The notes under the pieces are model-generated. The model did no database searches, was not told the DNA's origin, and saw nothing but the letters and a program-made list of their open reading frames with translations. Made by a program: the position numbers and the translations under genes. A stretch of DNA of 64,000 nt from Oscillospiraceae bacterium. Its GTDB lineage: Bacteria; Bacillota; Clostridia; Oscillospirales; Oscillospiraceae. Shown in pieces: positions 17,896 to 36,928 of this stretch. The DNA lies in NCBI GenBank assembly GCA_902778665.1, contig CACYYN010000004.1, forward strand, positions 1 to 64,000, written 5' to 3'. Each line of letters begins with the position of its first letter. The first letter of the stretch is position 1.

Positions 17896-17901
17896 TCCCT
17901 T

Positions 17902-18157
17902 AATTGCTGTGAAGGGCAGGAGTACGCAGAATTTGCATGTTCAGAGAGAAGGCGGCCGGTGAAAGCCTTTCATTGCAGGCTGCGGAAGGTCGGCCCGGAG
18001 CTCCGGGGGTGAAAGGTGTAGTAAGTCCCGGCGGGCGATTCCCGTTACAGGATCAGGGGCATAAATGCCCTGCAGAGTGCCGCAATTTTTGCGGAAGTCA
18101 GGTGGGACCGTGGTAAGTTTTTATCACCCTGAGGTTTATCCTCAGGGTTTTTCTTTT
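17902..18157 (+). promoter_or_regulatory. T-box riboswitch controlling valS
   Basis: The leader has the order of a T-box. An AGTA motif is at 17921-17924, and a distal stem I loop GGTGAAAGCC is at 17958-17967. The specifier region is near 18016-18023, where every plausible register (GTG, GTA, GTA) is a valine codon. A T-box sequence aggtgggaccgtgg at 18100-18113 would pair with the tRNA acceptor end. The terminator has an 8-bp stem (18127-18134 with 18140-18147) and TTTTTCTTTT. Uncharged tRNA-Val should stabilise the antiterminator and turn valS on. Confidence 0.88.
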
Positions 18158-18198: not shown

Positions 18199-20838
18199 AT
18201 GAAAGAACTTCCGAAAGTGTACGACCCGAAAAAGGTCGAAAAGAAAATCTACGACATGTGGATGGACGGGAATTATTTCCGTGCGGAGATTGACCCGAAG
18301 AAAAAGCCTTTCAGTATTGTGATGCCGCCCCCCAATGTTACGGGGCAGCTCCATCTCGGCCATGCTATCGATGCCACCCTTCAGGACATTCTGACCCGCT
18401 ATAAGCGCATGCAGGGCTATTCCGCCCTCTGGCTTCCGGGTGTGGACCATGCCGGCATCGCCACCCAGATCAAGGTGGAGGAAGAGCTGCGCACCAAGGA
18501 AGGCCTGACGCGCTACGATCTCGGTCGTGACCGCTTCCTGGAGCGTGTATGGGCATGGAAAGAGCATTTCGGTAACCGCATTGTGGAGCAGCAGAAGACG
18601 CTGGGCGTCTCGGCTGACTGGAGCCGTTCCCGCTTCACGATGGATGATGTCTGTGCAAAGGCTGTGCGCGAAACCTTCTGCGATCTCTATGAAAAGGGCC
18701 TTATTTACAAGGGCAGAAGAATTATCAACTGGTGCCCCCACTGCCGCACGGCGCTTTCCGATGCGGAAGTGGAATATAAGGATATTCCCGGCCATTTCTG
18801 GTATATCCGCTATCCGGTTGAGAACTCCGATGAGGAGTTTATCATCGCCACCACACGGCCTGAAACCATGCTGGGCGACACCGGCGTTGCCGTGAACCCT
18901 GCGGATGAAAAATATCAGCATCTGGTTGGCAAAAACGCGATTCTCCCGCTGGTGGGCAGAAAGTTGCCGATCGTGGCGGATGATTACGTGGAGCTGGGCT
19001 TCGGTACCGGCGCCGTGAAAATGACCCCCTGCCACGACCCCAACGACTATGAGGTTGCCCTTCGGCATAACCTGGAGATGATTCAGGTGATTGACGAGGA
19101 TGCGAAGATCATCAACGACGGCTGCGGCGGCAGATATGACGGGATGGACCGCTACGAGTGCCGCGAGCAGATTGTGAAGGATCTGGAAGAGCAGGGTTAC
19201 CTGGTGAAGGTGGAAGATTACAGTCACAACGTGGGCTGCTGCTACCGCTGCGGAACTACCGTGGAACCTATGACCAGCCCTCAGTGGTTTGTTAAGATGG
19301 CACCTCTGGCTGAGAAGGCCATAGAGGTTGTAAAGGACGGCCGGATTAAATTCGTGCCGGAGCGTTTTACCAAGACCTATCTCAACTGGATGGAGAACGT
19401 GCATGACTGGTGTATCTCCCGCCAGCTCTGGTGGGGCCATCAGATTCCTGCGTGGTATTGCGATGACTGCGGCCATATCACCGTCAGCAGGGAAGATGCC
19501 TGCGAGTGTGAAGCCTGCCACAGCAAAAAGATCCATCGGGAAGAGGATGTGCTGGACACCTGGTTTTCTTCGGCTCTCTGGCCCTTCAGCACCATGGGCT
19601 GGCCGGATCATACTCCTGAGCTTGATTACTGGTATCCCACGTCCGTCATGGTGACCGGGTATGACATTATCTTCTTCTGGGTTGCCCGTATGATCTTCTC
19701 CGGTATGGAGCAGATGAAGAAGGAGCCGTTCAAAACGGTCTTTATTCACGGTCTAGTGCGTGACAGTCAGGGCAGAAAGATGTCCAAATCTCTCGGCAAC
19801 GGCATTGACCCCATTGAAATGATTGATCAGTACGGGGCGGACGCACTGCGCTTCAACCTGATCACCGGTAACTCTCCCGGAAACGACATGCGTTTCTATG
19901 TGGAGAAGTGCGAGGCAATGCGCAACTTCTGCAACAAGATCTGGAATGCCTCCCGTTTTGTCATGATGAATCTCACCATAGACAAAAATGAGCTCCCGGA
20001 AAAGCTGGAGATCGAAGACAAATGGATTCTTTCCAAGCTCAACGATACCATCCGCGAAGTAAACATCAACATGGATGCCTATGAGCTGGGTGTTGCCTCC
20101 GGCAAGATTTATGACTTCATTTGGGACACCTATTGTGACTGGTATATAGAGCTCACCAAGCCCCGGCTGAACGCCGATAACGAGGAGCTTCGCATCAATA
20201 CGCAGAAGGTGCTGCTGTATGTCCTCACGGAGATACTCAAGCTTCTCCATCCGTTCATGCCGTTCATTACCGAGGAGATCTGGCAGGCACTGCCGCATGA
20301 GGAAAATGCACCCTCTGCTCTGATGATCTGCTCTTACCCCGCCTATGACGAGAAGCTCTCCTACCGCGAGGATGAGGCGAACTTTGAAATGGTGATGGAT
20401 GCCATCAAGGCTGTGCGTGCCCGCCGCGCCGAGATGAATGTTCCTCCCTCCAGAAAGGCCCATCTGTTCATTGTGACGGACAGGAAGGCGGCTTTCGAGG
20501 CAGGGCAGACCTACATCTCCAAGCTTGCGTACTCCAGCGATGTGTCCATCCTCTCCGACCTGCCAGCTGACAGCGACAAAATGGTTTCCGTGATCACCGA
20601 TAATGCACGTCTCTTCATGCCGATGTCTGACCTGGTTGACTTTGAGGCGGAGCGGGCAAGACTCACAAAGGAAATTGAAAAGACCGAAAAGCTGATCGCC
20701 GGTCAGGATGCAAAGCTTGCCAATACAAACTTCGTCTCCAGAGCGCCGGAGGCGGTTGTCAACGCCGAACGTGAGAAGAAGACGAAACTGGAAGCATTAC
20801 TTGAAAACCTGAAGCTCAGTTTGAACAATCTGGGTTAA
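18199..20838 (+). CDS. valS: Valyl-tRNA synthetase
   Basis: This 879-residue class I synthetase charges tRNA-Val. Visible are PPPNVTGQLHLGHA (HIGH-type motif near residue 52), the large editing domain (ATTRPETMLGDTGVAV) that hydrolyses Thr-tRNA-Val, and K527-M-S-K-S531. An anticodon-binding helical domain and a C-terminal coiled coil (about residues 815-875) follow. The length is normal. gaaggaggag lies before the ATG. It is controlled by the T-box immediately upstream and follows the liv transporter genes, so valine uptake and use are adjacent. Confidence 0.97.
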   Translation: MKELPKVYDPKKVEKKIYDMWMDGNYFRAEIDPKKKPFSIVMPPPNVTGQLHLGHAIDATLQDILTRYKRMQGYSALWLPGVDHAGIATQIKVEEELRTKEGLTRYDLGRDRFLERVWAWKEHFGNRIVEQQKTLGVSADWSRSRFTMDDVCAKAVRETFCDLYEKGLIYKGRRIINWCPHCRTALSDAEVEYKDIPGHFWYIRYPVENSDEEFIIATTRPETMLGDTGVAVNPADEKYQHLVGKNAILPLVGRKLPIVADDYVELGFGTGAVKMTPCHDPNDYEVALRHNLEMIQVIDEDAKIINDGCGGRYDGMDRYECREQIVKDLEEQGYLVKVEDYSHNVGCCYRCGTTVEPMTSPQWFVKMAPLAEKAIEVVKDGRIKFVPERFTKTYLNWMENVHDWCISRQLWWGHQIPAWYCDDCGHITVSREDACECEACHSKKIHREEDVLDTWFSSALWPFSTMGWPDHTPELDYWYPTSVMVTGYDIIFFWVARMIFSGMEQMKKEPFKTVFIHGLVRDSQGRKMSKSLGNGIDPIEMIDQYGADALRFNLITGNSPGNDMRFYVEKCEAMRNFCNKIWNASRFVMMNLTIDKNELPEKLEIEDKWILSKLNDTIREVNINMDAYELGVASGKIYDFIWDTYCDWYIELTKPRLNADNEELRINTQKVLLYVLTEILKLLHPFMPFITEEIWQALPHEENAPSALMICSYPAYDEKLSYREDEANFEMVMDAIKAVRARRAEMNVPPSRKAHLFIVTDRKAAFEAGQTYISKLAYSSDVSILSDLPADSDKMVSVITDNARLFMPMSDLVDFEAERARLTKEIEKTEKLIAGQDAKLANTNFVSRAPEAVVNAEREKKTKLEALLENLKLSLNNLG

Positions 20839-20844
20839 AGAGAA

Positions 20845-20980
20845 AAAATGAAACCCCCTCTGTTTTAAACAGAGGGGGTTGCTCAATTGACGTTTGAGCG
20901 GCTTACAGCTCACAGCGAAGGTAAAATTTATCGCGGGCCGTAAGCAAGAACCGTTGCATTTAACCCGTTTCTTGAACTGT
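20845..20980 (-). ncRNA. Unassigned structured small RNA with its own promoter and terminator
   Basis: On the minus strand a consensus promoter (20985-21013) drives about 135 bases that fold into consecutive hairpins. In transcript order these are a stem CAAGAA/TTCTTG closing 20945-20974, a 9-bp stem closing 20901-20945 with an inner GCGA/TCGC stem, a 6-bp stem closing 20881-20899, and a strong terminator at 20852-20880 with a T-rich run beyond it. No reading frame explains it. It lies between the valS stop and the minus-strand gene at 21081 and points toward valS. I do not recognise it as 6S, SRP, tmRNA or RNase P RNA. The function is unknown. Confidence 0.65.
20852..20880. terminator. Terminator between valS and the small RNA
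   Basis: A 14-bp stem (20852-20865 with 20867-20880, aaccccctctgttt on the plus-strand 5' arm) has almost no loop. On the minus strand it is followed by TTTCATTTTTTCTC, so it best ends the small RNA. It may also stop transcripts leaving valS. Confidence 0.75.
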
Positions 20981-20984
20981 ACCT

Positions 20985-21013
20985 ATTATAACCAAAAATA
21001 GAGCATTTGTCAA
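20985..21013 (-). promoter_or_regulatory. Consensus promoter of the small RNA
   Basis: On the minus strand, TTGACA (21008-21013) and TATAAT (20985-20990) are both perfect and are separated by 17 bases. This is the best promoter in the window. It drives only the structured RNA, implying strong expression. Confidence 0.85.
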
Positions 21014-21080
21014 CAGGTAAAACGAAAGAAATTTAGCTATTTTGCAATAAATGCCCAAATAATAACGGGAAATTCAAGAA

Positions 21081-21776
21081 TTACCGAGAAACATTAACAT
21101 TTCCTTCACAGGAAATTCCGTAAATCTCGACAGGCTGACTGTTGAAATTGACATAGGTGCCGTTAAATTCCCACTCACAGGAAAGGGGCAGAGAAACACT
21201 TTCTCCTGCCTTCAGGGGCACGGAAAAGGCATAACGCCCGAGCTCGGTGCTCTGCGGCTGGTTGAGGGATGCATTGACCGGGGCTGCATCCATCCGGTGG
21301 GAATCATCTCCAAGACGAATGGTCAGGCCGACTTTCGGTTCATTCCCATAGGTCAGGGCATAGTGATCGGCATAGACAACAACCTGCACCTGGGCATAAT
21401 CGTCACCCGCGGTGGAAGCATTCCAGTCTGCGTGAATATTCAGAAGCAGCGCCCGGCCGGATTCAATGCTGCCGTTTCCAAGAGGCAGAATCACAGGTTC
21501 CGGAGTGGGGGTTGGCACATAGGGTGTAGGCGTAGGGGGAGGAGCAGTGGGTTCGGGTGTGGCCTGAACGGGGGAAGGGGTTGTGATATTCTCCGCCGGG
21601 GCAGGAATCGCTGCCTGATCCGGATACTGTGTCTGATTCTCCTCCCGTATGGAGAATCCCGGAGAGAGGGGACTGCTGCCGCCCTCATCCGGCGTGCGCA
21701 TAATCATAAAGATTGCGCCGATGACTGCCAGAAAAAGCAGTAAAAATAGAACAATGCGTCCTGTCATTCTGTGCAT
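21081..21776 (-). CDS. Membrane-anchored extracytoplasmic protein, unknown function
   Basis: A 231-residue protein I do not recognise. One N-terminal transmembrane helix (about residues 8-26) is followed by a Pro/Thr/Ser-rich linker (about residues 45-95, repeats such as PTPTPYVPTPTPEP) of the kind that spans a cell wall. A C-terminal domain of about 135 residues has alternating hydrophobic stretches suggesting a beta sandwich (YAQVQVVVYADHYALTYG). A ggaaagg Shine-Dalgarno site precedes the ATG. It follows the SGNH-like gene on the same strand after 48 bases, so the two are probably co-transcribed and may act together at the surface. Confidence 0.65.
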   Translation of the reverse strand: MHRMTGRIVLFLLLFLAVIGAIFMIMRTPDEGGSSPLSPGFSIREENQTQYPDQAAIPAPAENITTPSPVQATPEPTAPPPTPTPYVPTPTPEPVILPLGNGSIESGRALLLNIHADWNASTAGDDYAQVQVVVYADHYALTYGNEPKVGLTIRLGDDSHRMDAAPVNASLNQPQSTELGRYAFSVPLKAGESVSLPLSCEWEFNGTYVNFNSQPVEIYGISCEGNVNVSR

Positions 21777-35007: not shown

Positions 35008-36777
35008 TTACGGTTTAAGCTCCAGGTAGAGGGAGCGGTACTGGGTTGCGGAGTTCTCCCAGGACACGTCCTTTTCCAGATCGCGTATAACCATCTCATC
35101 CCAGCGTTCCCGTTCGGTGAAGTAGAGGGTTTTTGCACGGTTGATGGCATCGAGCAGGAGTCCGGTTTCATAGCGGTCAAAGCTGAAGCCGTTGCCTTCA
35201 TTGGTGAACTGATTGTAGGGCTGCACGGTGTCCTTCAAACCGCCGGTCTCACGCACCACAGGGATGGTGCCGTAGCGCATGGCGATGAGCTGTGTCAGGC
35301 CGCAGGGCTCAAACTGACTGGGAACCAAAAATGCATCGGCACCGGCATAGATCAGATGTGCACGGCTCTCGTCATACATGATGTTGGCACAGACGCTGCC
35401 TTTGTAGGTGTTCTCGTAGTAGCGGAAGGCATCTTCATAGCGCCCGTCACCGGTGCCGAGAACCACAAACTGGGTGTTGCCGTCCATGATCTGGGAGAAA
35501 ATGGCATTGATCAGATCAAGACCCTTCTGGTCGGTCAGACGGGAAATCAGACCGATGACGAACTTGCCGTCATCCTGCTCGAGACCGAGTTTTTCCTGCA
35601 GAGCGCGCTTATTCTCCTTCTTTTTCTCCAACGCATCAGCAAGCGTGTAATTTGCGGCGAGCAGTTTGTCTGTTGCGGCATTCCAGATGTCCACATCAAT
35701 TCCGTTGACAATACCGCGGAGCTTGGGGGCATGGTAGCGCAGATGGGAATCAAGACCTTCCCCGTAATACGGGGTCTGAATCTCCCAGGCGTAGGTGTTG
35801 GACACGGTGGTGATCATATCCGTATAGGCAAGCCCGCCCTTGAACATATTCACGGTGTTCTCATCCTGCAGGAAGACGTTGTAGTTGAACAGGCCGTCAG
35901 GCAGGCCGGACCAGTATTTCAGCCGCGGGATATCGCACATTCCCTGGAAGCGGAGATTATGGATGGTGAGCATGGACTTTGCGCTGGCGACTTTTGTGCC
36001 GGCAAACTCCGTGCGGAGATACACAGGGACAAGCGCAGCCTGCCAGTCATGGCAGTGGATGATGTCGGGGATCCAGTCCATATAATTCAGGGCGGCCAGA
36101 GCTGCCTTGGCAAAATAGCAGTATTTGGGAATATCATCGTACAGGTTGGTGTAGGGGTTGCCCCAGCTGAAGAATTCATCATTGTCGATGAAGTCATAAA
36201 CCACGCCGTCCCATACATATTCCATAATGCCGACGTAATAGGTGTGTCCGTCCGAGCAGAGGTCCATCATGAAGTCACCGCGGTAGACCATCTTTTCCTG
36301 ATACTCCCAGGGGATGCATCTGTAGCGGGGCAGGATTACCTTCACATCACAGTTCTGCCGGGTGAGTGCTCTGGGGAGAGCATACATCACATCGCCCAGA
36401 CCGCCGGTTTTCACAAAGGGATAGCACTCTGAGCCGATAAAGGCTACGCTGCGTCTCGGCTGGGGCAGAGTTTCTTCCGAAACAGGTGCAGGAGCGGCTT
36501 CTGTTGCCTCGGCCTTTTTTGCACGCTTTGCCGGGGCTTTCTTCTTCGGGGCTTCTTCTGCATCGACAGTTACGGCTTTTGCGCTTTTGCGGGCTGCTTT
36601 TTTGGGCTCTGCCTTCTCGTCAGCTGTTTTTGCAGCAGCCTTCCGGGCAGTGGGCTTTTTTGCGGCAGATTCGTCATCTGCTTTTTTCTTCCTTGCGACA
36701 GGCTTTTTCTCTGCGGCAGCTTCCTTTATTTCAACTTCCTTCGCTGCTTCTGCAGCGTCTTTTTTCTTGGCTGGCAT
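35008..36777 (-). CDS. glgA: Glycogen synthase with a Lys/Ala-rich N-terminal extension
   Basis: The catalytic part (about residues 109-589) is a GT5 glycogen synthase: SVAFIGSECYPFVKTGGLGDV with the ADP-glucose-binding KTGGL, HCHDWQAALVP, VNGIDVDIWN, and VPSQFEPCGLTQLIAMRYGTIPVVRETGGL. It elongates alpha-1,4-glucan from ADP-glucose. Before it lie 108 residues almost wholly of Lys, Ala, Glu and Pro with repeats such as KKPVARKKK and KKAPAKRAKK, like a histone H1 tail. A good Shine-Dalgarno site (gaggag) places the start at 36777, before this tail. The gene is inverted between the rnc operon and smc. No other glycogen gene is near. Confidence 0.93.
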   Translation of the reverse strand: MPAKKKDAAEAAKEVEIKEAAAEKKPVARKKKADDESAAKKPTARKAAAKTADEKAEPKKAARKSAKAVTVDAEEAPKKKAPAKRAKKAEATEAAPAPVSEETLPQPRRSVAFIGSECYPFVKTGGLGDVMYALPRALTRQNCDVKVILPRYRCIPWEYQEKMVYRGDFMMDLCSDGHTYYVGIMEYVWDGVVYDFIDNDEFFSWGNPYTNLYDDIPKYCYFAKAALAALNYMDWIPDIIHCHDWQAALVPVYLRTEFAGTKVASAKSMLTIHNLRFQGMCDIPRLKYWSGLPDGLFNYNVFLQDENTVNMFKGGLAYTDMITTVSNTYAWEIQTPYYGEGLDSHLRYHAPKLRGIVNGIDVDIWNAATDKLLAANYTLADALEKKKENKRALQEKLGLEQDDGKFVIGLISRLTDQKGLDLINAIFSQIMDGNTQFVVLGTGDGRYEDAFRYYENTYKGSVCANIMYDESRAHLIYAGADAFLVPSQFEPCGLTQLIAMRYGTIPVVRETGGLKDTVQPYNQFTNEGNGFSFDRYETGLLLDAINRAKTLYFTERERWDEMVIRDLEKDVSWENSATQYRSLYLELKP

Positions 36778-36823
36778 AATAATCTCCTCACATGTCATCA
36801 ACTTTTGCCGGGTAGGTAGCATT

Positions 36824-36852
36824 ATTATATCAAACGTCTGGAAAAGATGCAA
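36824..36852 (-). promoter_or_regulatory. Promoter of glgA
   Basis: On the minus strand, TTGCAT (36847-36852) and TATAAT (36824-36829) are separated by 17 bases. The ATG is about 45 bases downstream, which supports the start ahead of the lysine-rich tail. Confidence 0.7.
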
Positions 36853-36928
36853 GTACCAGGGCGGAACAGAAAAGACAAAGAATGCCCGGATTTGGCCAAA
36901 AAGAAGCAATACTGCAGCAAACTCTGCC

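Follow-up and report, generated by a model that had tools for sequence, protein, structure and literature searches.

In the window, the whole stretch of 64,000 nucleotides from an Oscillospiraceae bacterium that was analyzed here, the end of the valS gene is faced by a putative transcription unit on the opposite strand, which raises the question of what kind of RNA this unit specifies. The first-pass annotation had described a strongly expressed, independent and possibly undescribed structured RNA. According to the comparative sequence data presented below, the locus almost certainly belongs to a multicopy family of stand-alone small RNA genes (1 to 3 copies found per genome) that are characterized by a promoter of their own, two tandem hairpins, conserved loops and a terminator. 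The more extensive reading, in which the members of this family additionally act by pairing in trans with mRNAs, is evenly balanced when taken as a whole.

The predicted transcription unit opposite valS

The features deduced for this locus are compiled in Table 1. The perfect sigma-A promoter that had been noticed on the minus strand was recovered without deviation from the consensus, and the strong expression claimed for the RNA is a prediction from this promoter. Counting promoter-like sites of all scores, five were present in the 1001-base region compared with 0.6 expected. The proposed organization of about 135 bases in end-to-end hairpins was likewise reproduced, with three hairpins followed by the terminator. 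Two further details had to be corrected: the terminator stem, previously given as 14 bp, is one pair shorter, and the region is not devoid of a reading frame, as an 18-codon frame starts with the AUG in loop 1, although the deduced peptide is not conserved across the family.

Table 1. Coordinates of the deduced features in the window
Feature	Position	Strand	Description
Sigma-A-type promoter	TTGACA 21013-21008; TATAAT 20990-20985	minus	17-nt spacer; 12 of 12 consensus matches
Predicted transcript	20843-20977	minus	about 135 nt; start placed by the -10 box and end by the terminator
Hairpin 1	20945-20974	minus	9-position stem with one A-G mismatch in the window copy; both partners vary in 8 of 9 pairs (nine copies)
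Loop 1	20954-20965	minus	GGUUAAAUGCAA, 12 nt; UUNAAUGNA kept in 9 of 9 copies (alignments)
Hairpin 2	20902-20944	minus	CUUAC...GUAAG as outer stem, then an asymmetric internal loop and an inner stem with GA/UC closure
Loop 2	20919-20930	minus	UAAAUUUUACCU, 12 nt; carries ACCUU, anti-Shine-Dalgarno-like (alignments)
Hairpin 3	20881-20899	minus	in 5 of 8 complete copies; mostly invariant where present
Intrinsic terminator	20852-20880	minus	13 pairs; the T tract behind it extends to 20843

Folding of the 136-nt stretch yielded -51.6 kcal/mol with a z score of -5.8, and none of 200 shuffled sequences folded as well. Without the terminator (99 nt), the z score of the window copy was -1.95, with 8 of 200 shuffles being as good, while four other copies treated in the same way reached z scores of -3.1 to -4.3. 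Since the fold score of the window copy is mostly contributed by the terminator, the single-sequence fold provides modest evidence and the comparison of copies represents the real test. Accordingly, the form of hairpin 1 listed in Table 1, with nine positions and a 12-nt loop, derives from that comparison and differs in detail from the single-sequence fold of the window copy.

The valS gene is located on the plus strand, with the stop codon ending at 20838, i.e. 5 bases from the predicted 3' end of the RNA (20843) and 14 bases from the terminator stem (20852). As claimed before, no same-strand gene follows directly downstream of the RNA. No plus-strand terminator was detected after valS (20839-20900) in a search of the region 20500-21500, so that read-through from valS could yield a transcript antisense to the RNA. 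A cis element of valS, acting as antisense RNA or as convergent terminator that tunes the valS end, would agree with the short distance between the two ends, but this reading is barely credible, as no other copy was found beside a gene matching the window valS in the flanks examined and no plus-strand terminator was found in the said region. A riboswitch, leader or attenuator is likewise not indicated, because valS is convergent and all eight complete copies of the family end in their own terminator. The view of an independent RNA was sustained by its own promoter and terminator and by the differing neighbour genes of the copies. At the other end of valS, a T-box leader is situated directly upstream of the gene at 17900-18134 (127.7 bits), which is the sole match in the whole window to reach an Rfam gathering score.

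A small family with covarying hairpins

With blastn, 3 of the 99 genomes searched yielded related sequences, and the genome of the window itself proved to contain a second copy. A covariance model built from five copies recovered these five with at least 94 bits in the 102 genomes of the genus, and weaker matches were added: the copies L016, L015 and L011 were accepted despite weak scores of 6e-4 to 6e-3 per genome. A second model built from eight copies added L206, absent from the listing of the first model, at an E value of 0.012; it assigned 66 and 63 bits to L015 and L016, as expected by construction because both are members of that model. The four weakest copies (L016, L015, L011 and L206) were accepted on the basis of loop motifs, promoter and terminator, with L011 being cut off so that no terminator is readable. 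Altogether, nine copies, eight of them complete, were accepted in 4 of the 102 genus genomes. Three copies belong to the window genome G000 (the window copy on contig C4, C26:19871-19974 and C26:31033-31127), two to G024, one to G058 and three to G103, one of the latter being cut by a contig end.

Outside the genus, the model searches of 197 and 300 genomes matched one genome each, in both cases the own genome only. A pattern search of 394 genomes matched two, namely the own genome and one (L215) judged to be a chance match, with one match in the backwards control. Among 40 genomes searched in addition to these, some of them already covered, three matched: G103, G024 and one with hairpin 1 only (L216); none was accepted from outside the genus. 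Within the genome contigs, 51 stretches fitted the pattern, including two family members (from G024 and G058). In viral contigs, a loose pattern fitted at least 120 stretches, and the 80 listed loci that were checked with the five-copy model gave no match at E values up to 1; a tighter pattern fitted four stretches, in which the model matched nowhere at the site of the pattern, apart from which an unrelated 14.3-bit match occurred in L231. By these searches the family appears to be narrow, with 4 of 102 genus genomes and no accepted member beyond the genus. As the large model searches scored 13 to 39 candidates per genome, this distribution is a lower bound and diverged copies may have been missed.

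Several candidates were dropped. L203 (G012) and L205 (G027) are GC-rich and lack, by eye, the family promoter and the loop motifs, whereas the pattern matches L020 and L022 (no matches in backwards controls) and L215 (one) were judged to be due to chance from the matched letters alone. L216 (G064:C125, minus strand, 1574-1501), from another family of the order, matches hairpin 1 only: it forms a perfect hairpin whose loop end AAAUGCAACG is the same as in hairpin 1, and no hairpin 2 was seen. The loci L204, L207, L210 and L012 (G027:C9, G000:C13, G117:C79 and G130:C18) were set aside as a separate, terminator-like dispersed element with the pattern GGAATCCGGTTAAAT...CTTACAG..CGTGATAA...CTGTAAG or similar; T tracts follow in the three readable cases, and the element lies directly 3' of a same-strand ORF in L204 and L207. 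This second element and the RNA family have GGUUAAAU, CUUAC and UGAUAA in common. A combined pattern, drawn from both, matched seven sites in the 102 genomes (three of the family and four of the second element) and none in the backwards controls.

The structural comparison of the accepted copies yielded strong covariation in hairpins 1 and 2, where both partners vary in 20 of 23 pairs of the nine-copy alignment, with the two helices of hairpin 2 contributing 12 of 14 pairs. In total, 21 of 28 pairs in this alignment change on both sides and 93.3% of the cells pair, compared with 34-44% when the partners were slid, which also lowered the covariation score from 0.570 to 0.05-0.10; these values refer to an alignment that was fitted to the structure. 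In a MAFFT alignment of five copies that was not fitted to the structure, 95% of the cells were paired and 10 of 29 pairs changed on both sides, compared with 30-42% and at most five pairs after sliding. Moreover, RNAalifold predicted the same 29 pairs from the sequence-only alignment of five copies, and the covariation anticipated for homologues was thereby borne out.

The promoter and the terminator are not part of the covariance models. A promoter with exactly 17-nt spacing and 9 to 12 of 12 consensus matches precedes the core of hairpin 1 by 15-23 nt in all nine copies, whereas such sites occur at 0.37% of random positions and 1.4% of positions in AT-rich stretches; the cut-off and the distance range of this test were fixed after the copies had been seen. 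A terminator was present in all eight complete copies, compared with 2.2% of random positions, and the predicted RNAs of these copies comprise 132-144 nt. Five copies had been found without recourse to these signals, through their sequence or a strong model score, and for them the promoter (5 of 5) and the terminator (5 of 5) constitute independent evidence. This does not apply to the weakest four, as the signals were used for their acceptance. By eye, a sequence resembling GAACAATTATGTAAACC directly adjoins the -35 box in the three type B copies (L008, L009 and L010), and a similar stretch, TTAACATAATG, is present in the other orientation upstream of the L015 promoter; these upstream stretches are possible operators.

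With respect to the genetic neighbourhood, the window copy is flanked by valS and by a gene presumably specifying a secreted protein, according to its translation. Judged again from the translations, we take other copies to be flanked by genes for an amidohydrolase-like and a transporter-like protein, a nucleotide-kinase-like protein and a double-glycine-leader-like peptide, or CobW-like and GGDEF-like proteins. No gene was common to the neighbourhoods among the flanks compared, and these differences argue that the RNA is neither the leader of one particular gene nor tied to valS. The only copies with shared neighbours among the compared flanks are those of G024:C75 and G103:C77, which are positional orthologues. 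Small ORFs with double-glycine-type leaders (LDQVNGG and LTQVNGG) that look bacteriocin-like by eye were noticed in L197 (6371-6685) and L207 (593-946 in reverse-complement coordinates), the former near the RNA copy L016 and the latter near the second dispersed element.

The dispersal of copies at unrelated sites in several genomes would also be compatible with a mobile or repeated element devoid of a regulatory role, as would the observation that the gene upstream of the G024:C20 copy has a relative in the window (35008-36909, 82% identical) that lacks an RNA copy of its own there. This explanation is nevertheless extremely improbable, since the sequences diverge widely and yet the pairs, loops, promoter and terminator are kept, and since two of the copies are positional orthologues. 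A phage or plasmid origin was rejected, as the window sequence matches nothing in the phage or plasmid collections.

Conserved loops and candidate modes of action

The loop motifs are constant while the stems vary: all nine copies contain UUNAAUGNA within loop 1, and all nine have UAA...ACYU within loop 2. Loop 1 occupies 12 gap-free alignment columns in every copy, with single-sequence folds closing it further in some of them, e.g. L015 and L206, and loop 2 is 12 nt long in six copies, whereas it has 13 nt in two copies and 11 nt in one. The sequence ACCUU is located next to the inner stem of hairpin 2 in eight of the nine copies and is replaced by ACUUU in the ninth. The three complete copies without hairpin 3 (L016, L015 and L206) contain CU-rich, largely open tails with CCUCC, UCUCC or UCCUU. 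No such tail is present in the window copy, which contains a single one of the seven CU-rich 5-mers scanned, namely CCUUC, situated at the margin of loop 2 and with a mean unpaired value of 0.6.

In the proposed mechanism, the conserved loops of about 12 nt that are held out by the two tandem hairpins, together with the CU-rich tail in three copies, would pair in trans with the ribosome-binding regions of mRNAs and thereby decrease translation; differing upstream sequences might allow the copies to respond to differing signals. The promoter present in nine of nine copies and the intrinsic terminator in eight of eight are as expected for a trans-acting base-pairing sRNA, and pairing is favoured by the ACCUU of loop 2 and the open CU-rich tails, since this type of sequence pairs with Shine-Dalgarno regions in Firmicute sRNAs like LhrC (PMC4132741). 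The 14-nt complement of loop 2, allowing one mismatch, was found ten times in four genomes, five times in the RNA genes themselves and five times elsewhere, compared with seven matches of the backwards control, i.e. without excess, and by eye neither ATG nor GTG is present in the 15 nt downstream of any of the five outside sites. Hairpin 1 displays a regularity of geometry that exceeds the needs of seed pairing and would suit protein contact, and the missing CU-rich tail of the window copy and the narrow range of the family likewise speak against the proposed reading. Pairing in trans is accordingly put forward as a tentative mechanism that falls slightly short of even probability.

The regular geometry would fit about as well to a protein-binding RNA, in which the two hairpins present conserved loops of similar length to an RNA-binding protein, either titrating it or acting in a complex. 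CsrB and RsmZ are protein sponges of this kind, containing hairpins with a conserved loop motif in several copies, and GGA in hairpin loops is the signal recognized in the Csr/Rsm systems. The family resembles these RNAs in its hairpins with conserved loop motifs and in the occurrence of several copies, in this case in three of the four genomes, and differs from them in its loops of about 12 nt. The conservation of the loop motifs beside freely changing stems, the gap-free loop 1 and nearly constant loop 2, and the lack of an excess of long complements are all consistent with protein binding. On the other hand, GGA occurs in loop 1 of one of the nine copies (L010) and in no loop 2, which does not qualify the RNA as a CsrA/RsmE sponge, no common neighbour gene was found, and the CU-rich tails of three copies would be left unexplained. 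Protein binding is therefore considered rather unlikely, albeit a serious competitor of pairing in trans.

The AUG of loop 1, which a short spacer separates from an upstream GG, is kept in all nine copies and could start a short peptide of a small mRNA or dual-function RNA. The window copy and that of G024:C75 indeed encode related 18-aa peptides, and peptides of 9 aa that resemble one another are specified by the three type B copies, but the frames of the eight complete copies comprise 18, 18, 9, 9, 9, 23, 31 and 65 aa, that of L016 passes through the terminator without a stop codon, the frame in which loop 2 is read is not the same in the two main types, and the nucleotide changes track the stems. 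With frames and peptides not conserved, peptide coding was rejected as the shared product, and a coding or dual function is given a low probability. Type I toxin-antitoxin systems comprise a hydrophobic toxin ORF opposite an antisense RNA; the short ORFs of the family lack conservation, and by eye no hydrophobic product was apparent among them.

An equally low probability is assigned to a self-folded module based on a kissing contact between loops 1 and 2 (GGUUAAAU with AUUUKACC), which would give rise to a compact tertiary RNA with a possible sensing or binding function. By reading, eight of eight pairs are possible in L008 and seven of eight in the window copy, and 77.5% of the cells are paired compared with at most 54.7% after sliding; 159 of 500 shuffles, however, reach this percentage. 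Moreover, only one of the eight pairs changed on both sides, which 59 of 500 shuffles also reach, and five of the eight depart only by broken pairs. Loop-loop kissing is thus possible in terms of sequence and not supported by covariation. A further, unlikely interpretation would be a new tandem-hairpin class, in which the two loops of about 12 nt form one surface by kissing or by docking of an unknown protein instead of serving as plain antisense seeds, and in which the AUG loop imitates a translation start; it would constitute an undescribed regulatory device of ruminant-gut Oscillospiraceae.

Relation to known RNA families

At the window RNA, no family of Rfam 15 reached its gathering score, the best sub-threshold match being 21.7 bits against a cut-off of 55, and for seven other copies (without the partial L011) a permissive search with E values up to 1 returned nothing on the RNA strand. 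On the opposite strand, a match of SSRC10 (25.1 against 56) touches the end of the L014 copy. The statement that the RNA is not 6S, SRP, tmRNA or RNase P was upheld, as none of the corresponding Rfam families, including RF00013 (6S RNA), matched there and a separate 6S RNA is encoded elsewhere in the window genome (G000:C2:95235-95433, 53.7 bits, above its cut-off), which argues against the window RNA being 6S. The suggestion of an undescribed RNA holds in the sense of an uncatalogued family. This family is judged to be real and of an ordinary kind, its unusual traits being the clean design with two loops and the narrow range. In the literature searched, the regulatory RNAs of the Oscillospiraceae, Faecalibacterium, Ruminococcus and rumen group seem little charted. 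Because the family is compact, covaries clearly, and combines two conserved loops with promoters and terminators of its own, its function is directly testable. If the RNA pairs with mRNAs, multicopy sRNA regulation would have arisen once more in the Firmicutes; in the case of protein binding, a hitherto unknown RNA-binding partner would be implied.

Like the window RNA, 6S RNA is an independent structured small RNA with a strong promoter, but it forms one long bulged hairpin, which the window RNA does not. RoxS and IsrR are stand-alone sRNAs of Firmicutes with C-rich loops, whose pyrimidine motif could face Shine-Dalgarno sequences. The family shares with them the stand-alone organization and an exposed pyrimidine motif and differs by the ACCUU within an otherwise A/U-rich loop and by the lack of an Rfam match. 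Among the papers listed on sRNAs of Oscillospiraceae and the ruminant gut, on covariance surveys and on the loop sequences, none deals with the family as judged by title and opening of the abstract, and supplementary lists of candidates, e.g. those of Fremin and Bhatt 2021 (PMC8040213), may overlap with it.

The report on LhrC of Listeria (PMC4132741) describes multicopy sRNAs with redundant CU-rich sites and CUCCC loops that pair with Shine-Dalgarno regions. Measured against this description, the loops of the family carry UUNAAUGNA and UAA...ACYU instead of CUCCC and match no Rfam family, and the redundancy of CU-rich sites, which LhrC has in a loop, in a single strand and also in the terminator loop, is not seen in the window copy, where loop 2 alone carries such a site. 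On the other hand, the family resembles LhrC in the single-stranded CU-rich segments of three of its copies, in the occurrence of several copies per genome, in a repeated loop motif and in a layout of two stem-loops that includes the terminator.
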